NCBI RefSeq assembly: GCF_000234665.1
Contig: NC_018328.1
Location: 248,001 to 312,000 of the forward strand
Length of the DNA: 64,000 nucleotides
Source: Leishmania mexicana MHOM/GT/2001/U1103
Lineage: Eukaryota > Euglenozoa > Kinetoplastea > Trypanosomatida > Trypanosomatidae
Direction of reading: 5' to 3'
Part shown: piece by piece, positions 32,553 to 48,300 of the stretch
How positions within the stretch are numbered: the first letter of the stretch is position 1
Layout of the letters: the number at the start of each line of letters is the position of its first letter
Translations under genes and position numbers: made by a program
Notes under the pieces: generated by a model
Told to the model about the DNA's origin: nothing
Database searches by the model: none
Seen by the model: the letters and a program-made list of their open reading frames with translations, nothing else

Positions 32553-34271
32553 ATGCCTGACATGAGCTCAAGCGACGATGCTCCGCCGCACAAACGCCTC
32601 GCCTCAGAGCAGTCCAAGCGTGACAGCGGCACCCATGTCGGTGCCCGAGAACACATCCACGATGCCCCAGCGCTAAGCGCACGCACACGCTTTCTACGAG
32701 AGCTGGAGCGGTACGCCAGTGATGACGATGATTATGGTGGCAACGCGGGCGCCGTTGCCGTCGGCGCCGGGTCCATGCGGCAGACGAACCACGCAAACGG
32801 AGCACCGCAGAGGCGATCCGAATTCCCGATGGCATCGGCAACGCGCGCTGCTGCGCCGTCTGTCGGCCCATCAAGCAGCTCAGACTTCTTCTTCGGTGGC
32901 GAAGACGACCCGCACGGCAAAGAGGGCGATGACGCCGTCGGTGATGATGCGATGTGGAGCACGGCATTCGCTTCCCCGCTAGCGAGATCCTTCAACGGCG
33001 CCCCCGTCACTGACTCCACCAGCGACAGCGGCATAAAAGGCAGTGGTGCAGCACCATCCCGTGTTGGCCTGCAGCTGCTGCATCACATGCACGCGCTCAA
33101 CACATCCGGCGACCGCAGAAGCAGCGGACACAACCCCGTCGTTCATTCAGCCGCAGCCAAGGCAAAAACGAAACCCCATACGTCACTCACACCGACGTCA
33201 TCTGGCGACTTCGAGGTCGTTCACGCGTATGTGCCACTGAGCACAGGCGGCTTCCTGAGCACGGCCAACGCGGCGCATGACACGATGGAAGGGCATCAAG
33301 TGCGCATCGGCGACGTTCTCTCTCTGCGGAAGCCCCTCAGCTGCGCAGGCCCACCATCGAGCAGCGCAGTGGCGAGTACGCCTGTCTCCTCTCCTACAAC
33401 TTCAACTGCCACTCCGTCTACCGCAGCCTCCGCCCTCACCACCGGCTCGGTAGTGGAGGACGTCGCGCAGAAGGCAATGTGTCACTTCAAGAGCGCCGCC
33501 ACCTTCACCTCCGAGGAGCAGAAATATGGCCGGAAGCTCAGTCCTGATATGGTGCGCCTGCTCTTCGAGGTCACGCGGGTGGATTATCAAGGACGCACCA
33601 TTGAGGCGCTCTTCCTGGACGGCACACGCGCGAAGGTCTTCTTCTTCGAGGCGCGGCCGGCAGGGTACGTGGAACGGAAGCTGTACGCAACGTGGAAGGC
33701 CGATCCAGCAAGTCGCCCTGTGGCCGTCATCCATAGCAACGCGTCGTCGCCGACCACGTCGTTGGCCCCAAATGGGGCCGGCTTGCCATCCTCCGCGCCG
33801 TCACCTGCGCTCCCGCCGCCGCCGCCGTCAGTGACCGCTGTCGCGTGGTGGGTAATCCCGCGTCTTCTCGTGCGTGTCACGACGGAGGCAGCCGGCGACT
33901 GGTACGGCAAGAAGTGCGTCGTCAAGACCGTGCAGCGAAGCGAGAACCGCGTCCGGCTGATGGAGTGGGTGGAGGAGGGCCGCAGCGGCGGCGGTGAGAG
34001 TGGCAGCAGGAGCGTCCACAACTGCGGTGGGCTGACGGCGGCCACTACTGAAACTCGAGAGCTGGTAGGGGTGGACGGGCTTGAGACAGTGGTCCCCAAG
34101 AAGGGTGGCCGTGCCATGGTGGTACTGGGGAGCCGGCGAGGCGAGATGTGCACGGTTCGCAGCCGCGTTCGTGGTGCGGATGGTGAGTTGACGGCCGTCG
34201 AGGTGGAGCTGAACCGAACAAAGGAGGTGGTGACGCTACAGGCGGGCGAGCTATGCGCCCTGGCGCGATGA
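32553..34271 (+). CDS. Protein with KIN17/GPKOW-like C-terminal KOW (SH3-like) domains
   Basis: A 572-residue protein. The C-terminal ~145 residues resemble the tandem SH3-like/KOW end of KIN17: WWVIPRLLVRVTTEAAG, GKKCVVKTVQ, then GLETVVPKKGGRAMVVLGSR. This module binds RNA or DNA in spliceosome- and replication-linked proteins. A middle block (residues ~325-385, RLLFEVTRVDYQGRTIEALF) looks folded but is unassigned. The N-terminal ~300 residues are Ser/Ala/Thr-rich, and I see no C2H2 zinc finger or winged helix as in true KIN17, nor a G-patch as in GPKOW. The ORF opens with GTG at 32541, so the first ATG (32553) is used; the ATG at 32562 is an alternative. A nuclear RNA-related role is inferred only from the KOW module. 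Confidence 0.78.
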   Translation: MPDMSSSDDAPPHKRLASEQSKRDSGTHVGAREHIHDAPALSARTRFLRELERYASDDDDYGGNAGAVAVGAGSMRQTNHANGAPQRRSEFPMASATRAAAPSVGPSSSSDFFFGGEDDPHGKEGDDAVGDDAMWSTAFASPLARSFNGAPVTDSTSDSGIKGSGAAPSRVGLQLLHHMHALNTSGDRRSSGHNPVVHSAAAKAKTKPHTSLTPTSSGDFEVVHAYVPLSTGGFLSTANAAHDTMEGHQVRIGDVLSLRKPLSCAGPPSSSAVASTPVSSPTTSTATPSTAASALTTGSVVEDVAQKAMCHFKSAATFTSEEQKYGRKLSPDMVRLLFEVTRVDYQGRTIEALFLDGTRAKVFFFEARPAGYVERKLYATWKADPASRPVAVIHSNASSPTTSLAPNGAGLPSSAPSPALPPPPPSVTAVAWWVIPRLLVRVTTEAAGDWYGKKCVVKTVQRSENRVRLMEWVEEGRSGGGESGSRSVHNCGGLTAATTETRELVGVDGLETVVPKKGGRAMVVLGSRRGEMCTVRSRVRGADGELTAVEVELNRTKEVVTLQAGELCALAR

Positions 34272-36688: not shown

Positions 36689-37336
36689 GAGAAAGACGAC
36701 GCAGTGCTGGCGGTGACGATAGCGCGTCGCCCCCTCGCAGCTGAGGCGGACGCAGCCCAGAGGCTTCTGTTTGGCGATGGCGCAACGCTGGCTAAACACG
36801 CGCACATGCGTGGTGGTCGATGAAGCGTTGCCGTGTTGCAGTTTTACTTGCGTACGTGTCTGTGCGTGTGCTCGCAACGCTTCGACACTCTTGCGTAAGG
36901 CGCCTCCTCAACGATGCACCTTCGGTAGTGACAGACCAAGAGGAGAGGCATCCGAAGGCGCGCAGTTGCTCGCGACGCGAGGACGCACACGTGCCCGATG
37001 CCTCACACTGCTGCGCGTGAGGTACTCGTCTCGCTCGCCCCACTCGCACATCTGCTCCATCTCTTCCTCTCTGCCTTTCAGTCTTCGTTTGTTTTCATGC
37101 TTGTCGCCTTGGATCCGCGTGCGAACATGCGTGCGACGCCTTGAGGCTGCAACTTGAGTGTCACCGACCCTCCATCACCGGTCGCCTAGTCTGCTGTAAG
37201 CCCTCTCTCTCTCTCTGGGCCATCCGCTACCACATCTCAAGCGGTCGTATCACCGGCCGCACACACACACACACACACCTCCCCACCCCCTCGAGGCAAC
37301 ACTATCACCGACGGAAACGGCAAGCGGCAAGTCTGT
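36689..37336. other. Intergenic spacer
   Basis: No gene supported; a 128-codon ORF at 36771-37157 is Cys/Arg-rich and unlike its neighbours. CT-rich tracts at 37045-37095 and 37200-37218 and a CA run at 37261-37278 precede the next ATG. Confidence 0.55.
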
Positions 37337-39154
37337 ATGTCTGACCCGCAGCATCGAAGGCAAGAGGAAAGCGCTCCTCGTCAAGGAAGATGGGGAGGCA
37401 TGCCGGCCGCGCCGAATTCAGAGCTGGATGCGGACCTTGTGAAGAGCACATTGGCGACCTCCTCGCGGCTTCCGCCGTCAGGTCCGCGCCCACAGCGCAG
37501 AGGGGTAGCGGTGGCACAATCCGCCGCCAGCAGCAATTTCCCCTGTATTGCCCGACAGCCGTTCGACGCGTACGTGGTGCTGGACTTCGAGGCTACTTGC
37601 GAGGCGGACAGGCGCATCGCCGACGCGGAGGTGATTGAGTTTCCAATGGTCCTGGTCGACGCTCGCACCGCCACACCGGTTGCGGAGTTTCAGCGATATG
37701 TGCGGCCAGTGAAGAATCCCGTGCTCTCGCGCTTCTGCACCGAGCTGACAGGCATCACGCAGGACATGGTGCGTGGTCGTGACCCGTTCCCTATGGTGTA
37801 CTGCGAGGCACTGCAGTTTCTTGCCGAGGCCGGACTCGGCGATGCACCCCCCATGCGCAGTTACTGCGTCGTTACGTGTGGCGACTGGGACCTGAAGACG
37901 ATGCTGCCGGCGCAGTTGCGTGTTAGTGGACAACAAGGAACTCCACTGTCGTTTCAGCGGTGGTGCAACCTGAAGAAGTGCATGTCACAGCTGGGCTTCG
38001 GCAACGGGAGTGGGGGCGGCGGTCCCGCGCCGCCGCTTGGACTCTCTTGGATTCCCGACATGCTGCAGATGGTCGGTCTCCCGATGCAGGGACGTCATCA
38101 CAGCGGCATCGACGACTGCCGCAACCTTGCCGCTGTTCTGTGCGCACTGCTGAGGCGCGGCCTCGTCATTGACGTGACTTTTTCTAGTACACCCTTTCTG
38201 CGCTGGCACGCCCCGACGGAGGCGCAGCTTCCTGCCTTGGACGCGCTGCCGAGCACGTTGGCCGACGGCGCGGTGCAGCACTCAAGTGATGTGCCTCCAC
38301 CGCCGCGGTCGCATGCCCGGACAGAGGGTGACGCTCCACAACCAGAGCAGCAGCAGCAGCAGCAGCAGCGACCGCCGGCTCCAGCGAAGAAGGGGCGTTT
38401 GAGGCATCGGTGCGCATCCTCAGTCGACTTCATTTTGCCAGCTCTTGCCCTTGACACGAATCGCGACGCCGTGCAGGAGCTTCTCCCCGACACAACCCCT
38501 GCCGACGCTCCTCCGCGAGTGTTCGACGAGGAGGAACTCAAGAAGGCGTCTAAATTCATGTCTATCCTACTCCGCCACAAGGCGATCCAGTGGCGGGTGC
38601 CTATCACCTCCAACGGCTACGTGTTGCTCGATGACGTCCTACGTCAGCCACAGATGAGGAAGCAGCAAGTCTCAGTGCAGGATGTCGCCAGGATCGTGCG
38701 CGACTCCGACAAGCAGCGCTACCGGTTAGCGTATGGTGCGGCAGACGGCCGTCTCTACATTGCTGCCGTGCAAGGGCACAGCATCGATGGTGTTGAGCCG
38801 CAGCTGCGAGCGCTGACAAGCGTGGGGGAGGTACCGGTGGCTATTCACGGCACCTACTGGGAGGCCTGGAAAGCGATCCAGCAGTGCGGTTACCTGAGCA
38901 CCATGAGTAGGCAGCACATCCACTTCGCCAAGGGGCTCATAAACGACGAGCAGGTGGTAAGCGGCATGCGCAAGAACGTGCAGCTCTTCATCTACCTGGA
39001 TGTCGCGGCAGTGCTCGCGGATGGCGTGGCACTCTACGAGAGCACCAACGGCGTCCTTCTTACCCCCGGTGTAGGCCACACGCGGCAGCTGCCTCTCAAG
39101 TACGTGGCCAAGGTGGTGGACCGAAGCAATGGCCGCACAATCTACCCTGCGTGA
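37337..39154 (+). CDS. Fusion of ERI1-type 3'-5' exonuclease and Tpt1/KptA RNA 2'-phosphotransferase
   Basis: A 605-residue protein with two catalytic domains. Residues ~75-275 form a DEDDh exonuclease of the ERI1/3'hExo type: VVLDFEATCEADRRIADAEV (Asp83, Glu85), FCTELTGITQDMV, CGDWDLKTML and HHSGIDDCRNLA. Residues ~395-600 form Tpt1/KptA: KASKFMSILLRHKAIQW (Arg412-His413), SNGYVLLDDVL, KQRYRLAYG, HGTYWEAWKAIQ and MSRQHIHFAKG. The four catalytic Arg/His/Arg/Arg positions appear present. Tpt1 transfers the splice-junction 2'-phosphate of ligated tRNA to NAD; ERI1 enzymes trim RNA 3' ends. A Gln tract (CAG run, residue ~338) lies in the linker. Both halves are in one uninterrupted frame, so this is a genuine fusion unless the assembly is wrong. 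Confidence 0.92.
   Translation: MSDPQHRRQEESAPRQGRWGGMPAAPNSELDADLVKSTLATSSRLPPSGPRPQRRGVAVAQSAASSNFPCIARQPFDAYVVLDFEATCEADRRIADAEVIEFPMVLVDARTATPVAEFQRYVRPVKNPVLSRFCTELTGITQDMVRGRDPFPMVYCEALQFLAEAGLGDAPPMRSYCVVTCGDWDLKTMLPAQLRVSGQQGTPLSFQRWCNLKKCMSQLGFGNGSGGGGPAPPLGLSWIPDMLQMVGLPMQGRHHSGIDDCRNLAAVLCALLRRGLVIDVTFSSTPFLRWHAPTEAQLPALDALPSTLADGAVQHSSDVPPPPRSHARTEGDAPQPEQQQQQQQRPPAPAKKGRLRHRCASSVDFILPALALDTNRDAVQELLPDTTPADAPPRVFDEEELKKASKFMSILLRHKAIQWRVPITSNGYVLLDDVLRQPQMRKQQVSVQDVARIVRDSDKQRYRLAYGAADGRLYIAAVQGHSIDGVEPQLRALTSVGEVPVAIHGTYWEAWKAIQQCGYLSTMSRQHIHFAKGLINDEQVVSGMRKNVQLFIYLDVAAVLADGVALYESTNGVLLTPGVGHTRQLPLKYVAKVVDRSNGRTIYPA
38346..38369 (+). repeat. CAG glutamine tract in the exonuclease-Tpt1 linker
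   Basis: Seven consecutive CAG codons, after a further GAG CAG-like start, in the low-complexity linker between the two enzyme domains. Confidence 0.85.
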
Positions 39155-40068: not shown

Positions 40069-43000
40069 ATGGCGGCCGCCGCGTCGCCGTTCTCGCTGCC
40101 TCGTGCGCGGTTGCCGGCGCTGCAGCAGCTCCCGCTTGACTCCATCACGGTGTACGATACGGCCACCCACTGCTACCTGCTCGGCACAGACAGCCTGCAG
40201 AAGAACTTTCACCTTCTCTCCTGCCGCAAGCACAGCGCTGAGCCAACACCGTGCCACAACGCTGTCAGCAACAGTAGCGTCGTCGCGGGCGCTGGCAGTA
40301 ATGGACGCCAGAACGCCACCGTGTCCGAGTCGGAGGCGGAGGTGGGGCGGGCAGGGGCGAGCACCGCCGCTCCCCCGAGCGCTTCCCACGCCGAACTGTT
40401 TGGCCTTGACGACTTGCACGACTTCACGAGCTACGCCGTCTACTCCCCGACAGAAGCCGGGGCCCTCGTCGACGCTCTGCGACGGGAGCACGGCGCGTCA
40501 ATGCGCATTCTCTCCGCTGTCGCCTTCCTCGGTGCGGTACGCTTCACCGCCGGCTACTACGTGGTACTGGCGACGGAGCGACGCATGGCGGGCTACCTTG
40601 GCGTGCACCGGCTCTTCGAGGCTGTGAGCGTGGAACTGGTCTCGCTGCAGCTGGATCCTGAATGGGTGGCCGCCGCTGAGATGCAGGCGCGAAAACGGTT
40701 GCAACAGCTTCGGCGCGGCGGCGGCGTTGGTGCTCGAGGCTTCAAGACCGGCTACTCTCCGCTTATCTCTGCACCAGGGACGGCGGCAGGCTCGCCGTTC
40801 GTGCCTTCTACATCCCGCTCCCGCCTTGCCAGGGCTGGCTACGGCCGCAAGTTCGTCGCCTCCGGAACGGGCGCCTCGGCGTCTGCCACCTCGTACATCT
40901 TTCAGCGCCGCAGTCTGGAGGAGCTGTACCGGCAGCAGCTCATCACCTCCCTCTCGCGCGCCTCATCTTTCTTTTACTCGCACAGCTACGACCTCACGAA
41001 CACCCTTCAGAGGAACATGCTGGCGGCAGGGACAGCGGTGTCCGACGGGGGGGTCCAGCCGATCACCTGTGCGGGCAACGGGGGGCGCCACTGCTTTGAG
41101 CGGCGCCCAGATCGCGTCGCCGCGGCAGATGCCCGAGTGGAGCCCTCCCCGCGAGGTGGTCAGCCGCTGCAGCCACGGATGCAGTACGTGTGGAATGAAT
41201 ACCTTCTGGAGCCGTGGCAGCTCAACGACCGCGATGCAGAAAGCGTCAAGGTCGAGATGAGTGACGTAGCCGAGGCCGATGTCGGTGGCGGCGGTGACGC
41301 GCCGGCAGCCCCGCCCGCCGGCCGTGCAAAACGGGATTCGGCGCCGCAGTACCCATCTGCACTGTCGCGGTGGTGTGTCTTCCTCGTGCATGGCTACATT
41401 ACGCAGCGCGCTGTGGTGGTACGCCGGCCAGCCTTTCGCACGCTTCTCGTCACGCTCATCGCGCGTGTCAGCAAGGCGTCGGCCGGCGTACGCTACCTCC
41501 GGCGCGGTCTCAACAGTGACGGACACGTTGCAAATCACGTTGAGGTGGAGCAGATCATCAGCGACGAGTCTTCGTGGAACTCGACCTTTACTGCCGGCGC
41601 CATCACCTCCTACGTCCAGCTGCGTGGGTCGGTGCCAGTGCGGTGGTATCACCCACCGACAGCGTCGCGCCTGCTTTCGAAGCCGCCAATCGTTATAGGA
41701 CCGCACGACTCGCAGTGGAGTGAGACATGCCTCCACTTCCAGCACCTCCTGGAGCAGTACGGCTCTCCCATCTTGGTGCACGACCTTCTCAAACGCAGGG
41801 AGAACAACACGCGGGAGAGCGTGCTCGGCGACGCGTACCGCGCGGCAGTGCGTGCCATGGTCGCCGCTGTGGACCGTTGGACCCCCGCTGCGACCGCCGG
41901 CCGGGACAGCGTGGAGAGGGGTAACACAAGTGAGCCACGCGTCTGCGGCGCTGACGTTCTCCAGTACGAGTCTACTGACCTCCGCAGTCTCAGCCAGCTC
42001 GCGTGGAACACAATGACAGCTCTGGCAGAGCAGCACTTCCGTGTGGTCCACTGTTTTGTCACCAGGCGATGCTGCCCGGTCGCCACTCTTGAGCGGCACG
42101 CACAGTATGCTTCTCGTCTCGATCACAGTGACATGCTCATGACAGGTGACACCAGCAAGGTCGCCGATGCACACAAAAGACGCGTCAGCAGCGACGGCGA
42201 AGATGCCGAGGTTGTTCAGCTGCAGCGCGGGGTGGTCCGCAGCAACTGTCTCGACTGCATCGACCGCACTAACCTTGGTCAGCTTTTCCACGGCCTCCAC
42301 GCTCTGGGGGAGCAGCTGTCTGCGCTCGGTCTGCTGCAGCACGCAGCGGATGTATGTGACTCGCCAGCGGTAACGGAGCTGCTGCTTGAGATGTACCTGG
42401 CCATGGGGGATGCCATAGCCACTCAGTACGGCGGCTCCGCCCAGGTCGGAGCTGGCGTGCTGCACCGCGGCGCGGGCTGGGATCAGCTGATGGGGGTGAA
42501 GCGCCTCTACCACAACGTCATGAGTGACCGTGACAAGCAGGAGGCAATGAACCTTCTGCTCGGCCGCAAGCAGCCGCAGCCCCGCCGTGGCTCACGCGCC
42601 TGCAACCCAGAGATGCACAGCCCTGGCCAGATGGTCCCGCTCCCCCTTGCCCAAGCCTCCCCATCATCCACTGCGCCGTCGCTGAGCGCCTCCATCACGT
42701 CTGCGTCGCCAGCGGCAGCGGCTGCGTGGGTTGGCGTGGGCCGTGGCCCGCTTGCGAGCGAGGATGCCGGCGGCGCCACGGCATCCTTCCTCTCTGGAAT
42801 CCGCCAGACGGCCTCGCGGTGGTGGAGCGAGGCAACTTCGTCAGCGTCGTCTTCTGGGGCGGCGGTGGCGGCCGCGGAGGCAGAGGCAGAGGCTGACTAC
42901 TACGAGCAAGTCTCCAGCGCCCCACGGCTGCCTCTGCCCGGTCTGCTGACGTCGTGGTGGGTGCAGCCGCTACGCCGCTTCGACGCGTGGTGTGCTGCAT

Positions 43001-46000
43001 GTGGTGCCAGTGCACTCCGGGGCGCCACGAGGAATAGCAAGACCGCAGACGCCGCAAGCGTGCGGCCTTTGGGAGAAGTCGCTGCCCCGCAGGCGCCGCG
43101 CAGCTCCTTGGCTCACTCAGATGTCTCCATCTCCTCTTCTGCACCGACGCTTGCCTCCTCGGCAAGCTCTCGCACGAGTGTGCCGACGGACGCGGCCGTG
43201 GCGTCGGCCGACGCCTACGGCGGAGACGAGCTGGCGCTTCACCTTCTCGCCGCTGAGGCGCAGGCGCAGGAGCGTTGGAAGCTCTTCATTGCCAACGTGG
43301 AGCGGCAAGCGTGCCTCGCCCCAGCGCGGCGCGACGCGGCCGCGCAGCTCTACCACGGCAGACGTAGGGGAGTGTCGCATGGCGACGGGATCGACGATAC
43401 CGCCGCAGCACCGTCCCTGTCTTCGCCCCTCTCTCCAGTCTCGGCGGGCACTCCCGCTAGCGACGCGTCGGCGCCGTCACGCTCGATGCAGTGGTCTCTC
43501 GTAAGCAGTACCACGTCGCCGACCGTGCGTACAGCGGCCGCCACTGGAGGCGCGGAGGCGGGTGCCCTGTCCCGTGCAGGATATGCAACGGTGGCGTCAG
43601 CGGAACGCGCGCCTCTACCCTTCTCCGCACCGTTGTTGACGGCTCCGCTGTACCTCTTTACGGAGCCGTTGGTTCTTCTCCGCACGACGATGCACGCGTT
43701 GCCCGTTGAACGTTTTGCCGTTGCAGAGCGCCGGCCGACCGGGCCATCGACCGCCTCTGCTGCTGCGTTGGGCTCTGGTGGCTTGAGATCGGGCAAGAAG
43801 CGTGCTGCGATTTACAGCGTCGGCGATGCTTTGCCGCAAGAGCCACCGTACAGCGTCGGACAAGCTGTTGCGCGCCAGCTCTTTGGCTGTTTCCCGCCTG
43901 CCGCTGCGGTTGTCACTGCTCACTCTCGGGATCAGATGCTGATGGCGCAACACCAGCCCTGGCGGTCGCCGCAGGAGGCTCACTCACACGACGCCTTCCC
44001 ATGCATCGTGCGGAACAGCGCGTTCGCGCAGCAGAATGCGGACCTTGAACGGTTGGCGCACCGGGAGGTGCTGTGGATAGTACATGGTGTCGGCACGGCG
44101 GCAGCTGGGACGCACGGGGTGTCCGCGGAATCGCTGCGGAGGTCCACGTCGTGTGCTTCGATGGTGCAGCCCTCAGCACCGCCAAGCTGGCCGTGGACTC
44201 TCTCCGCGCAGGAAGTCGCGGACCGTCAGTTCATAGCGGCGCTGCTCGTGGGTTGGTTCGGTGCGCCGGCAACTTGGGGGCTAGAGGACATGATACGAGT
44301 GGCGCAGCGCCTCGTCTACCCCGAGCTCTTGCCGGCGGAGGTGCTGCAGGTGCTGCGCAGCAGCCGTGTGCAGCCGCCACTCGAAGGAGCAGAACTTCTG
44401 TTCGCTGGTACGCCTTCAAAGGCAGAAGAGGGCACGGAGGAGCGAGAGAAACGCGTGGACGCAGAGACAAGGCAGTACTGGCATGAGCGACTCGCCGCAT
44501 CAGTCGGTCAACGAGGTTCGCTCTTCGCCCGCGGCACTCCCGTCGCCGCCTTCAAGCATGCCTCCAGGCCGACGGCGCCGCGGCGAGACCCCGGGGGCAG
44601 AGACGCCCCCCTTCGGCGGACGTCACCCGTGCGCTTTGCCCCGCCGCCCACGCCGCTGCCATATCAGCGGGATGTGAACGTCAACTCAGACAGCCCGGTG
44701 CAGGCGGCAGTGGCTCTCCTCTGCCGTCTTGCAAGCGTTCTACGCTTTGCGGGGCACGACAACACGGCGAGAGGGGCGTCGATGAACGACACGGGCATCG
44801 GGCCGGTCGTGGGGGCGCGCGGCAGCGGCGTAGTCGCGGCGACCTCTATGGCAGCTCGCTGGAGCCACGAAGTCTCGACGGGTGAGAGTCGTGGTGGCGC
44901 AGGTGTGAACGTCCTCGCTGTATCGACACACGACGCCGACGCTGCGCAGGACGAGAAGGCTGCGCCTGTCCGCCGTGTGGAAGAGGCGCTTCTCCCCTTA
45001 CTGGAGGAGTGCCCCAACGCTAGCGCGCCTGCATCTGCATACCTCCCGGGTCTCTTTCCCAAGCACGAGGCCCTCCCCGACTCGCTGCGTCGGCAGTGGC
45101 TCCTGTGTCGTCTCCTGCAGCCCATCTTCACCCGCTGCGTGCTGACGCCGCCAACGCTGCACAACCTGCTTCGTGACCTCTTCACCGAGCTGCTCACTGT
45201 CGACGACACTGCCGCAGGTCCTGCCGACGAGGTGAATCGGGAGAATGAGGCACGGCAACAGCCCCGACGCCGCGAATACCGCGTCCGCTACAGCTTTGTG
45301 CTGCCCCAGCAACACTGGCAACTGCAGCAACAGCCACTACAGGGGCAAACCCCCCGCCTGCAACCCTCGGGCGATGACGGTGCGGATGACGCTGGGGGTC
45401 GCGGGGATGGCTGGTACCTGTACAATCTCTTTGCGGGCAGGTCTACGTCGCTGTCGTCCTCCTCACCGCAGGAGCCGTCGAACATGCACAACGCCTCCTC
45501 ATCCCCCACCTCCGCCGCGGCCTCGCGAACGCTGAACATTCCGGCCACGCTGAAGGTGCGGCACTGCTGCTCTGCCTTGGATCTCTACCGCTGGTCTGTG
45601 GCACACTGTCCGCTCTTCGCGATCCCTCCTGACCGCGAGCCGAGCTACGCGTCCGTGGTTTGCAGCAACGGCAGCAGCGCGAACAGGAGCACCGCAGCGG
45701 CTGTGTGGCACCTGCTTTGGTGGGCAGTCGACAACAGCTTTCTCGTTCCCGTCGTGCGCCGCCGCGGCCAGGCGACGCTTGAAATGTTAGCGGATGAGAC
45801 AGCGCTTTTCTGCGTGAAGCGCGATGTGGCGCGCGTCGCGCTGAACGTAGAGCGCCGCTGCCGCGATGACGTCTGGCGACCGCAGCAACCGGAAGCACGG
45901 GCCAACTCCGGGAAAGAGGTGCCTAGCTCCAGCGCTATCTACGGAGTCGACCTCGCCCCATCGATGCTGCGGCTGCACCGGCCCCTTCGTCGCAGCACTC

Positions 46001-48300
46001 TCGCCGGCATCTTGGCGCTGAGCGAAAATCTGGCGAGTCTCGGGTTGCGTGCCGCGACGCAGGTGCAGGAGTTCTTCCGCGCTCGCAACGTGCACGGCTG
46101 GGCGCGGCAATCCCTCGGCGCCGGCGCTGGCACTACGGTCGCTCTCTTCGGCGGCCGTCCCGTTGGTGCAACGGAAGTGGTAGACTCCTCCTCCGTGGCC
46201 AGCGCCGCCACAGCAGCCACCGTCGTTCGGCGTTTTCACCGACTCGCCGAGGACTGCCTGCAGAACGTGCAGAGTGCCATGGCGGCGCTTCAGCACATGT
46301 CTCTCGAGGTCCTTGCGAGGGACGCCGCCATGCACGACTACATCAGCTTCTTCGTGAACGTGTACAATGCCGCCTACGTAGCGGCGTGGCTGACCAACGT
46401 GAAGGAGCTGGTGAGTAACGGCGCCGCAGCGGCAACGGCTGGCACGAGCTCACCCGCTAAGAGCAGCCACCACCAGCACCAGGGTGCTCGTCGCGCGCCG
46501 ATACCACGCACCATCGACCTCTTCCCGCTGCCCACCTTGTGCAACACGAGCCACGCCTGCTTCATGCACGCGTACGGCGTCGTCATTGGGGGCGTGTTTG
46601 TGAGCCTCGACGAGATGAAATACGGCATCTTGGGCGGAAACCGAGCTCCGCCCCACTGCGACCTGCCGCTGTGGCCCCCCGTTGGCGGCAACGGTGCCAG
46701 TCCGTGCCGCCCCTCGAGCAGTCAGCGGTCGAGCGAGCTGGACTGGCGACAGCAGATGCAACGACTTGTGCCGCTGCATCTGCGCGCTGACGTGTCCGAG
46801 GTGGCGCGGCTCAATGCCCTTCAGCGTCACCCACACCTGCAAGAGGCGCTCGACTTCATCGACATGTGCGAGGCGCTCGCCCCCTCCACATCGCACATAC
46901 ATAATCCTGGCGCTGAGGGAGACGGGGCACACGCAGTGTCGGCGAAGGCACGGCTCACCTCGCACGAACAGGGCGCAATGCGGAACCCGAGTAGCAGCTA
47001 TCGCGCACCTTCCCTGTCGCAGCCCTCGCCGGCCTCTTCCCTCGACATCGCGGCGGCCGCCGCAGCGGCAACTGACTCGGCTAGGCGAAGCGTATGTGTG
47101 TCACCACCGTTGCCGCCGAACACTTCATCAGCGCGAGGACTGGGCTGCCAAGGTGATGGTGGTCCTCAGCAGCGCCGACGCCACGAGCTGGTTGACGTGT
47201 GGTGCGTCGATGTCGTGCGTTACGTACCGTTCCGCATCGTGCTTCAGCTCATTGATACCTATCTACCGCCGCCGGTGCTTCATCTGTGCGCCGGTAGCGT
47301 CGATGCAGAGTGGAAGGAGTACTCTGTGGATATCACCGGCGACGATGATGGCAGCGGTGCAGCAGGCAGCATCAGCCCCGTCCTGCTCGACGGAAGAGAC
47401 CGTGTACCGTGGTATCTACAGCCAATCTTCAATGCCACGTCGCTGTTGCACACCACCTTGCAGAGCTCCAAGCTCGGCGCCGCCTACGCTGTTGCCCGCG
47501 ATGGCGACGGACCGGCGGCCGGCATGTTGACGCCGCGGGTTAGCCAAGACGCAAACGGTGTGCTGCTGCAGCCGTGTCGCATGTGGAGCAGTCCTTCCTA
47601 CTACGTCGTCGGCGGCGACGGCATGAGCGGTGATGAGGCCGTGAGCCACTCCTTCCAACTCCTGCAAGCGCTGGCAGGCTCCTACCTCGGCGCCGGCCTC
47701 TACCACCCCATCAGCCTTGGCACCACGGGTGGCAGCGCTGAGAATGCTCCGCCGCGTGCTCCAGCGCAGCACCTGTGTATTCCCCTTCACTCTGACGATG
47801 CCTTCACGCAGCTGCGCGCAACGGAGGCGGCCTTCCGCAGTGCCCTCCTCACCACCGACCCGCACCTCTTTTGTGGCGCCGCCACACCACCACCCACGAA
47901 GTCGCCCGTGGGGGCAGTGCAGTCTCGGTGCTCATCCCAGCCGCCGCCGCTGTCTTTGCCGACTGCCTCTTCGCAACCGCCTCATCTACGCGGTCATGGC
48001 GGTGCTGCCGGCATGCACACAAGCACAGCTGGCCCCGGCGCCAGACTGATCTTTGGCGGCTTTGGCAGCTCTGCCACATCTTGCTCTGCCACCCTGCAGA
48101 ACGCCATGAAGCCTCTCTTGTACGAGTGGTGTCGGTCGGTAGAGGAGATGGGCAACTCCACCCTTTTCTCCCGACCTGCGTGGCAGATGCGGGTGACGCT
48201 CCAGATGGTGCGGCTGCTCGAGGAGTCCTACGCGTCTGGGAGGGCAGTGCGAGCCGCACAAGCGGCGATGCGGTCTGGCGAGGCGGTGCCGACCAAGTAA
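40069..48300 (+). CDS. Giant FIG4-like SAC phosphoinositide phosphatase with possible DEP and DUF547 domains
   Basis: A 2743-residue protein. The N-terminal ~840 residues form a SAC domain: YLGVHRLFEAVSVELVSL, then RSNCLDCIDRTNLGQLF with the CX5R catalytic cysteine at ~residue 727, and YHNVMSDRDKQEAMNLLLGR, typical of the FIG4/Sac3 branch that acts on PI(3,5)P2 at endosomes and vacuoles. A long low-complexity middle follows, with folded patches. Around residues 1827-1920 a block (CSALDLYRWSVAHCPLFA; AVWHLLWWAVDNSFLVPVV) reads like a DEP domain. Residues ~2087-2200 match DUF547: FFVNVYNAAYVAAWLTN, then YGVVIGGVFVSLDEMKYGIL. DEP followed by DUF547 is a known pairing elsewhere, but its attachment to a SAC phosphatase is unusual. 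One frame, no breaks; the start is the first ATG. DEP is the least certain call. Confidence 0.88.
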   Translation: MAAAASPFSLPRARLPALQQLPLDSITVYDTATHCYLLGTDSLQKNFHLLSCRKHSAEPTPCHNAVSNSSVVAGAGSNGRQNATVSESEAEVGRAGASTAAPPSASHAELFGLDDLHDFTSYAVYSPTEAGALVDALRREHGASMRILSAVAFLGAVRFTAGYYVVLATERRMAGYLGVHRLFEAVSVELVSLQLDPEWVAAAEMQARKRLQQLRRGGGVGARGFKTGYSPLISAPGTAAGSPFVPSTSRSRLARAGYGRKFVASGTGASASATSYIFQRRSLEELYRQQLITSLSRASSFFYSHSYDLTNTLQRNMLAAGTAVSDGGVQPITCAGNGGRHCFERRPDRVAAADARVEPSPRGGQPLQPRMQYVWNEYLLEPWQLNDRDAESVKVEMSDVAEADVGGGGDAPAAPPAGRAKRDSAPQYPSALSRWCVFLVHGYITQRAVVVRRPAFRTLLVTLIARVSKASAGVRYLRRGLNSDGHVANHVEVEQIISDESSWNSTFTAGAITSYVQLRGSVPVRWYHPPTASRLLSKPPIVIGPHDSQWSETCLHFQHLLEQYGSPILVHDLLKRRENNTRESVLGDAYRAAVRAMVAAVDRWTPAATAGRDSVERGNTSEPRVCGADVLQYESTDLRSLSQLAWNTMTALAEQHFRVVHCFVTRRCCPVATLERHAQYASRLDHSDMLMTGDTSKVADAHKRRVSSDGEDAEVVQLQRGVVRSNCLDCIDRTNLGQLFHGLHALGEQLSALGLLQHAADVCDSPAVTELLLEMYLAMGDAIATQYGGSAQVGAGVLHRGAGWDQLMGVKRLYHNVMSDRDKQEAMNLLLGRKQPQPRRGSRACNPEMHSPGQMVPLPLAQASPSSTAPSLSASITSASPAAAAAWVGVGRGPLASEDAGGATASFLSGIRQTASRWWSEATSSASSSGAAVAAAEAEAEADYYEQVSSAPRLPLPGLLTSWWVQPLRRFDAWCAACGASALRGATRNSKTADAASVRPLGEVAAPQAPRSSLAHSDVSISSSAPTLASSASSRTSVPTDAAVASADAYGGDELALHLLAAEAQAQERWKLFIANVERQACLAPARRDAAAQLYHGRRRGVSHGDGIDDTAAAPSLSSPLSPVSAGTPASDASAPSRSMQWSLVSSTTSPTVRTAAATGGAEAGALSRAGYATVASAERAPLPFSAPLLTAPLYLFTEPLVLLRTTMHALPVERFAVAERRPTGPSTASAAALGSGGLRSGKKRAAIYSVGDALPQEPPYSVGQAVARQLFGCFPPAAAVVTAHSRDQMLMAQHQPWRSPQEAHSHDAFPCIVRNSAFAQQNADLERLAHREVLWIVHGVGTAAAGTHGVSAESLRRSTSCASMVQPSAPPSWPWTLSAQEVADRQFIAALLVGWFGAPATWGLEDMIRVAQRLVYPELLPAEVLQVLRSSRVQPPLEGAELLFAGTPSKAEEGTEEREKRVDAETRQYWHERLAASVGQRGSLFARGTPVAAFKHASRPTAPRRDPGGRDAPLRRTSPVRFAPPPTPLPYQRDVNVNSDSPVQAAVALLCRLASVLRFAGHDNTARGASMNDTGIGPVVGARGSGVVAATSMAARWSHEVSTGESRGGAGVNVLAVSTHDADAAQDEKAAPVRRVEEALLPLLEECPNASAPASAYLPGLFPKHEALPDSLRRQWLLCRLLQPIFTRCVLTPPTLHNLLRDLFTELLTVDDTAAGPADEVNRENEARQQPRRREYRVRYSFVLPQQHWQLQQQPLQGQTPRLQPSGDDGADDAGGRGDGWYLYNLFAGRSTSLSSSSPQEPSNMHNASSSPTSAAASRTLNIPATLKVRHCCSALDLYRWSVAHCPLFAIPPDREPSYASVVCSNGSSANRSTAAAVWHLLWWAVDNSFLVPVVRRRGQATLEMLADETALFCVKRDVARVALNVERRCRDDVWRPQQPEARANSGKEVPSSSAIYGVDLAPSMLRLHRPLRRSTLAGILALSENLASLGLRAATQVQEFFRARNVHGWARQSLGAGAGTTVALFGGRPVGATEVVDSSSVASAATAATVVRRFHRLAEDCLQNVQSAMAALQHMSLEVLARDAAMHDYISFFVNVYNAAYVAAWLTNVKELVSNGAAAATAGTSSPAKSSHHQHQGARRAPIPRTIDLFPLPTLCNTSHACFMHAYGVVIGGVFVSLDEMKYGILGGNRAPPHCDLPLWPPVGGNGASPCRPSSSQRSSELDWRQQMQRLVPLHLRADVSEVARLNALQRHPHLQEALDFIDMCEALAPSTSHIHNPGAEGDGAHAVSAKARLTSHEQGAMRNPSSSYRAPSLSQPSPASSLDIAAAAAAATDSARRSVCVSPPLPPNTSSARGLGCQGDGGPQQRRRHELVDVWCVDVVRYVPFRIVLQLIDTYLPPPVLHLCAGSVDAEWKEYSVDITGDDDGSGAAGSISPVLLDGRDRVPWYLQPIFNATSLLHTTLQSSKLGAAYAVARDGDGPAAGMLTPRVSQDANGVLLQPCRMWSSPSYYVVGGDGMSGDEAVSHSFQLLQALAGSYLGAGLYHPISLGTTGGSAENAPPRAPAQHLCIPLHSDDAFTQLRATEAAFRSALLTTDPHLFCGAATPPPTKSPVGAVQSRCSSQPPPLSLPTASSQPPHLRGHGGAAGMHTSTAGPGARLIFGGFGSSATSCSATLQNAMKPLLYEWCRSVEEMGNSTLFSRPAWQMRVTLQMVRLLEESYASGRAVRAAQAAMRSGEAVPTK

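Follow-up and report, generated by a model that had tools for sequence, protein, structure and literature searches.

RNA 2'-phosphotransferases of the Tpt1/TRPT1/KptA family are known from solved chains of 230-253 residues, namely the human (7yw3) and mouse (7yw2) proteins and 7yw4, the yeast enzyme to judge from its Lys69. Their active site has been defined as an Arg-His-Arg-Arg tetrad with a conserved lysine (PMC6333775), and the same work calls the wide spread of Tpt1, for instance in bacteria without an obvious substrate, a "longstanding conundrum". KptA is fused to Nudix in a giant virus and is found in other viruses, and the passages of PMC9503650 on these proteins contain no exonuclease fusion. 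Human ERI3, an exonuclease of the DEDDh family, has been solved as chains of 216 and 224 residues (PDB 7k05 and 2xri) that carry no Tpt1 domain. Here we describe a gene that joins the two families. It lies in a 64,000-nucleotide stretch of the Leishmania mexicana MHOM/GT/2001/U1103 genome (contig NC_018328.1, positions 248,001 to 312,000, forward strand; hereafter the window) and encodes a 605-residue protein with an ERI3-type exonuclease domain followed by a Tpt1 domain, an order that we abbreviate as exo-Tpt1. On the evidence of its sequence, the product is a real, conserved and predicted bifunctional enzyme, and the combination appears to be a recurrent eukaryotic one that extends beyond kinetoplastids. 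The reverse pairing (Tpt1-exo) is newly described here, and the recurrence in both orders is the main point of interest.

Two complete domains in one reading frame

The frame runs unbroken from ATG to stop through the linker, with 9-19 stops in each of the other five frames, and Met22 (nt 37400), where the nearest relative P0001 begins, is an alternative start. A Pfam scan of the protein returned RNase_T (E 3.3e-19, 70.5 bits versus a cut-off of 24) and PTS_2-RNA (PF01885; E 2.5e-52, 177.9 bits versus 26), both above the curated cut-offs, and no further family up to E 1. An earlier note on this DNA had proposed two complete domains in a single frame, and both statements hold: all motifs that it named are present. 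In a comparison of G+C by codon position, run without a shuffled control, position 2 is lowest in the exonuclease domain (0.47), the linker (0.55), and the Tpt1 domain (0.38), with the weakest contrast in the linker and no dip over residues 1-72. Nothing points to another trans-spliced gene within the frame, because a pyrimidine tract followed by AG, a candidate spliced-leader acceptor, lies upstream of it and the longest pyrimidine run within 38190-38520 is 9 nt.

Table 1. Features of the fusion locus and neighbouring frames; positions are those of the window.
Feature	Position	Strand	Basis
Coding sequence, exonuclease-Tpt1 fusion, 605 aa	37337..39154	+	List of open reading frames, single ATG-to-stop frame, Pfam
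Candidate spliced-leader acceptor, pyrimidine tract then AG	37201..37241	+	Tract 37201-37216, AG at 37240
ERI3-type DEDDh 3'-5' exonuclease domain (predicted), residues 80-268	37574..38140	+	Pfam, alignment, Foldseek
Interdomain stretch, residues 282-396, Q/P-rich in part	38180..38524	+	Alignment, AlphaFold2
Conserved linker motif LDTNRDAVQELL, residues 372-383	38450..38485	+	Recurrence in relatives, predicted local confidence
Tpt1/KptA RNA 2'-phosphotransferase domain (predicted), residues 402-578	38540..39070	+	Pfam, alignment, Foldseek
2743-aa frame	40069-48300	+	Pfam
572-aa frame	32553-34271		Pfam match under cut-off

In the exonuclease half, the motifs DFEATCE (at 83), GDWDL (at 182), and HHSGIDD (at 254) are in place and provide the DEDDh catalytic residues D83, E85, D185, H255, and D260, from which 3'-5' exoribonuclease activity is predicted. 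The best solved sequence relative is human ERI1 exoribonuclease 3 (ERI3; E 8.9e-37), with which this half shares the catalytic residues, the GDWDL and HSGIDD motifs, and the fold. Further, a branch with support 96 in a quick tree splits the domain from human ERI1 and three paralogues of the same genome, and human ERI3 falls on the same side of that branch as the window domain, without firm placement there. By sequence, fold, and quick tree, the exonuclease half thus appears nearer to ERI3 than to ERI1, which is a likeness and not an established orthology, its position on the ERI3 side of the tree not being fixed. Of the earlier description as an ERI1-type exonuclease, the DEDDh family stands, while the ERI1 type gives way to ERI3.

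ERI1 itself was rejected as the identity of this half, three ERI1-group exonuclease genes being located elsewhere in the genome, within 10 kb of another contig (G000:C8:945678-955482; L002, L003, L005, L011-L014). These are DEDDh proteins with 35-53% identity to the exonuclease domain over the matched parts, but they cluster with human ERI1 and carry GPWD or GPMD where the fusion has GDWD, and the genome's single Tpt1 match lies apart from them. In one of the three, the first motif reads DVE instead of DFE. The RNA interference exonuclease RIF4 was also weighed and set aside; the word "phosphotransferase" is absent from the main text of PMC3359990.

In the Tpt1 half, RH (413-414), RYRLAY (from 461), HGT (504-506), and RQHIHFA (from 525) are in place. 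Alignment to 7yw2, 7yw3, and 7yw4 identifies R413, H414, K459, R461, and R525 as the active-site residues, so that the R-H-K-R-R active site is shared with the solved enzymes, as is the fold; unlike in those chains, the domain here is the second half of a longer protein. The best solved sequence relative is human TRPT1 (E 1.5e-33). NCBIfam models for RNA 2'-phosphotransferase reach 81 bits at best, well under the equivalog cut-off of 239; we do not count this shortfall against the Pfam assignment, as the NCBI models name bacterial and archaeal proteins. The half is predicted to remove 2'-phosphates in an NAD+-dependent manner. A search of the genome (32.0 Mb, 545 contigs) with PF01885 returned no second Tpt1, leaving the fusion gene as the sole match.

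The AlphaFold2 model, built from a 44-sequence alignment, contains two confident domains (mean predicted local distance difference test score, pLDDT, 79.8; predicted template modelling score, pTM, 0.48). Its top Foldseek matches in the PDB are mouse TRPT1 for the Tpt1 half (7yw2; E 3.1e-18, TMt 0.91) and human ERI3 for the exonuclease half (7k05; E 1.1e-17, TMt 0.92). The stretch between the domains, previously described as only a low-complexity linker, fits that description in part: besides its Q/P-rich composition, residues 314-363 have pLDDT values below 50 and are predicted to be disordered, whereas residues 282-310 and the block 371-380 exceed 90, the latter averaging 95. The motif LDTNRDAVQELL in the region of this block recurs in the distant relatives P0041, P0043, and P0047 and, judged from the model, is possibly a docking helix. 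Overall, the linker is 14-25% identical to those of Phytomonas, two Trypanosoma species, and Bodo, compared to 43-63% for the domains; in Bodo saltans, the values are 50% (exonuclease), 43% (Tpt1), and 24% (linker).

Conservation, reverse order, and origin

The relatives comprise 188 proteins, taken from the best 120 of 209 and the best 120 of 1183 matches to fusion queries together with all 15 of 15 matches to the Tpt1 domain. Among them, 49 are exo-Tpt1, 85 Tpt1-exo, 38 exonuclease only, and 16 Tpt1 only, counts which are biased to the similarity-ranked fusion queries and are not frequencies. Among the best 120 of 209 matches, 22 proteins are named for a kinetoplastid species, and 21 of these have the exo-Tpt1 order. 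These come from many genome projects and span Leishmania, Novymonas, Porcisia, Leptomonas, Phytomonas, Trypanosoma, and Bodo saltans, and orthologues encoded as two genes were not seen among the matches listed. The ten catalytic residues, five from each active site, are kept in all 50 exo-Tpt1 proteins, the window protein included, and a loss of catalytic residues was thereby rejected for this order.

The one exception is P0061 of Trypanosoma conorhini (395 aa), which has no Tpt1 part although it is named "phosphotransferase". It resembles the T. cruzi protein through exonuclease and linker, and shortly after the start of the Tpt1 domain the similarity gives way to unrelated sequence, which suggests a gene model that is truncated or has changed frame. 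Conversely, P0174 is a Tpt1-only protein of 237 aa with 72% identity; located on a contig of 1040 bases, it is probably a cut gene.

Tpt1-exo proteins occur in the chlorarachniophyte Amorphochlora (P0053), the green alga Cymbomonas (P0126), the ciliate Stylonychia (P0159), and the alveolate Chromera (P0141). Additionally, there is one in the raphidophyte Heterosigma (P0077, in a record marked partial) and one under the clipped name "Parte", presumably Partenskyella, likewise a chlorarachniophyte. Both Pfam families score above cut-off in ten of ten scanned fusion proteins, six of which are these named Tpt1-exo proteins. All fourteen checked alignment columns are filled in 69 of the 85 Tpt1-exo proteins, and in 66 of them the ten catalytic residues are all intact; P0077, P0163, and P0171 do not keep all ten, and the other 16 have gaps. 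The reverse-order proteins thus share both families with the kinetoplastid fusion but differ in domain order and in exonuclease domains that fall outside the clade holding the kinetoplastid ones. The Chromera protein adds an N-terminal MJ1316 domain (MJ1316-Tpt1-exo), in Pfam's wording an "RNA cyclic group end recognition domain". MJ1316 (P0111, 4.5e-18) is also found on related exonucleases that lack Tpt1, as are NADAR (P0098, 2.6e-40), PARG_cat_microb (P0089, 3e-38), and DUF4326 (P0097, 4.5e-22). Between the domains of two Tpt1-exo proteins, a NADAR match remains under the Pfam cut-off of 35.1 bits (P0051, 35.0; P0075, 25.2). The presence of the reversed pair in other eukaryotic lineages speaks against the earlier statement that the two enzymes are normally separate, taken as a general rule. 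Equally, the notion of a trypanosomatid economy serving one intron-bearing tRNA does not fit a pair that is found both in those lineages and in the free-living Bodo saltans.

For the trees, all of the quick kind, exonuclease domains covering less than 85% and Tpt1 domains covering less than 80% of the profile were removed, and near-copies were thinned at 70% identity, from 170 to 136 exonuclease and from 140 to 107 Tpt1 rows; with PDB and paralogue rows, the trees hold 141 and 111 rows, respectively. The full exonuclease tree places 31 of 33 exo-Tpt1 rows in one clade (support 99; the starred clade), together with two rows without Tpt1 and away from the Tpt1-exo rows, with the exo-Tpt1 proteins P0036 and P0168 outside. 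The full Tpt1 tree unites 31 of 32 exo-Tpt1 rows in one clade (support 98), with only P0168 elsewhere. Clade tests were run on samples of 58 of the 111 Tpt1 rows and of 57 and 55 of the 141 exonuclease rows. Nine long or odd rows (P0067, P0168, P0141, P0116, P0163, P0161, P0145, P0171, and P0166) were left out of all three tests and P0036 also out of the first exonuclease test, removals that followed inspection of the full trees.

In the exonuclease tests, a single clade of all Tpt1-fused exonucleases was rejected by the approximately unbiased test (p-AU 0.0066 with 57 rows and 0.041 with 55 rows), and for the reverse order as one clade the values were 0.019 and then only 0.090. The 12 exo-Tpt1 rows of the first test form one side of a branch with a support of only 44. 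For Tpt1 (58 rows), one clade of all fused rows was not rejected (p-AU 0.435), nor was the reverse order as one clade (0.416), in a test that is weak, as the free search missed a tree 38.6 log units better in which the 12 exo-Tpt1 rows stand together. The opposite order alone requires a second joining or a rearrangement, and several origins, i.e. independent assembly, are likely from these sequence comparisons; loss of a Tpt1 part would likewise break a clade of Tpt1-fused exonucleases.

The exo-Tpt1 architecture is already on record in databases, where the L. shawi protein is annotated as "Exonuclease/RNA 2'-phosphotransferase, Tpt1 / KptA family, putative" and that of T. vivax is also named for both domains. 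Judged from titles and abstract openings, none of the open-licence papers listed deals with the fusion, which does not prove that none exists. The main text of PMC11833690 uses none of the words exonuclease, fused, and fusion, and the matches in a diplonemid proteome paper (PMC12699882) are confined to its reference list. A look through the open literature for substrate-end requirements of ERI1 yielded nothing useful.

tRNA splicing context and possible roles

The genome search returned a single match to Trl1-type ligases, comprising the ligase part and the P-loop kinase part, and one splicing-endonuclease match. The tRNA look-up, made for tRNA-Tyr, found three tRNA-Tyr(GTA) genes, each with an 11-nt intron at position 38. 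Parts of the 5'-phosphate (Trl1/Tpt1) pathway are thus present, the tRNA-Tyr context raised by the earlier note is real in this genome, and as in known Tpt1 systems the genome encodes the type of ligase that generates 2'-phosphates. T. brucei encodes RtcB, Trl1, and Clp1 together and has one tyrosine tRNA with an intron (PMC10598085); the same source, citing Lopes 2016, states that its Trl1 homologue joins tRNA exons. Because Trl1 is present and the fusion gene is the sole Tpt1 match, removal of the 2'-phosphate at the tRNA-Tyr junction would be the natural job of the Tpt1 half, and the sequences indicate that it very probably performs this step.

We consider it fairly probable that the protein is a housekeeping bifunctional RNA-end enzyme in which removal of the scar by Tpt1 is coupled to 3' trimming or decay. 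The Tpt1 domain would use NAD+ to strip the 2'-phosphate left behind at the junction by the Trl1-type ligase, above all in tRNA-Tyr, while the ERI3-type domain would act as a 3'-5' exonuclease on RNAs of the same pathway, i.e. excised introns, unligated exon halves, or ligated RNAs due for trimming or discard. By coupling scar erasure with 3' trimming or decay, one enzyme could pass through scar-bearing RNAs or choose between repair and destruction. The occurrence of the pair across kinetoplastids and, reversed, in distant single-celled eukaryotes suggests that the two activities act in concert, and the fusions of related exonucleases to MJ1316, NADAR, and PARG count in the same direction. That 2'-phosphates can stall an exonuclease follows from yeast, where Xrn1 is inhibited when the leading nucleotide of an RNA fragment bears both a 5'-phosphate and a 2'-phosphate (PMC6456296), and by analogy a 3'-5' enzyme may be blocked in a similar way. 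Moreover, in Tpt1 structures the enzyme touches the 3'-phosphate that neighbours a 2'-phosphate within the chain (PMC6333775), so the RNA target is likely internal, and read-through of a scar fits better than cleaning of free ends.

Several points weigh against this reading. The yeast block concerns a 5'-3' enzyme and not the 3'-5' type, a free 2'-phosphate/3'-OH end may, judging from the contacts in Tpt1 structures, be a poor Tpt1 substrate, and the sequences do not show a common substrate for the two halves. With a pTM of 0.48, the arrangement of the domains in the AlphaFold2 model is not fixed. Further, the 801 of 929 residues of the Trl1-type ligase frame that were covered gave no match to a cyclic phosphodiesterase (CPD) family, a domain that would lie at the C-terminal end, and the genome also holds one RtcB match, so that Trl1-type and RtcB-type ligases coexist (L016, L017). 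The RtcB route of ligation leaves no 2'-phosphate scar.

The same unfixed arrangement and the poor conservation of the linker relative to the domains would suit two independent activities that share no substrate, with Tpt1 serving tRNA-Tyr, the exonuclease serving other RNAs such as rRNA, snRNA, or mRNA 3' ends, and the fusion being an ancient accident that kinetoplastids have simply inherited. ERI-type exonucleases elsewhere indeed have several substrates (PMC11736430, PMC5089844), and the weak Tpt1 test did not reject a single clade of fused rows. Set against this are the reversed pairing in distant lineages, the conserved linker motif, and the exonuclease trees, which oppose one clade of Tpt1-fused exonucleases; we regard independence of the two halves as rather unlikely.

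Quite unlikely, in our estimate, is a role in NAD/ADP-ribose chemistry, in which Tpt1 would add ADP-ribose to 5'-phosphates or process ADP-ribosylated RNA and the exonuclease would turn over the marked RNA. Human TRPT1 attaches ADP-ribose to 5'-monophosphate RNA, and RNA so modified is shielded from XRN1 (PMC9458441), bacterial PARGs take ADP-ribose off 5'-phosphate RNA ends (PMC11833690), and exonuclease relatives are fused to NADAR and PARG, as described above. NADARs, however, are unable to remove ADP-ribose from RNA phosphate ends (PMC11833690), and the NADAR matches within P0051 and P0075 stay below the Pfam cut-off. In the L. mexicana genome, NADAR is a separate open frame of 225 aa, and Trl1 and the intron-bearing tRNA-Tyr supply the classical Tpt1 substrate. 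A macrodomain search of this genome at E 0.001 gave 0 matches.

That the fusion is an artefact, with an assembly or frame error uniting two genes, is practically out of the question: P0061 without its Tpt1 part and the Tpt1-only P0174, itself probably a cut gene, would speak for it, but the order is the same in nearly all listed kinetoplastid-named proteins, one open frame runs through the linker, and the similarity of P0061 fades just inside the Tpt1 domain and does not end cleanly before it.

The coupling of scar removal with 3' trimming or decay can be carried further. Tentatively, and with more doubt than confidence, eukaryotes may have assembled more than once, and in either order, a 3' exonuclease aware of 2'-phosphates, in which an ERI3-type exonuclease is paired with Tpt1 and MJ1316, NADAR, or PARG come in as additional or substitute partners. 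Such an enzyme would act in surveillance, erasing ligation or end-chemistry scars on RNA and then deciding between repair and decay. If so, the kinetoplastid protein would be the form best suited to experimental study. In kinetoplastids the pair resides in one gene, so that point mutants could dissect both activities. The recurrent physical link of Tpt1 with an ERI3-type exonuclease, whichever domain comes first, offers a specific lead to the conundrum of Tpt1 distribution, namely that Tpt1 may serve RNA trimming or decay besides tRNA splicing, and it supplies the ERI3-type exonuclease with a partner activity.

Neighbouring frames

Two further frames in the window gave Pfam matches (Table 1). 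The frame of 2743 residues contains a SacI homology domain (Syja_N, 2.5e-55) and a DUF547 match under cut-off. The frame of 572 residues has a GPKOW_C match, also under cut-off, and perhaps encodes a splicing-related KOW protein.

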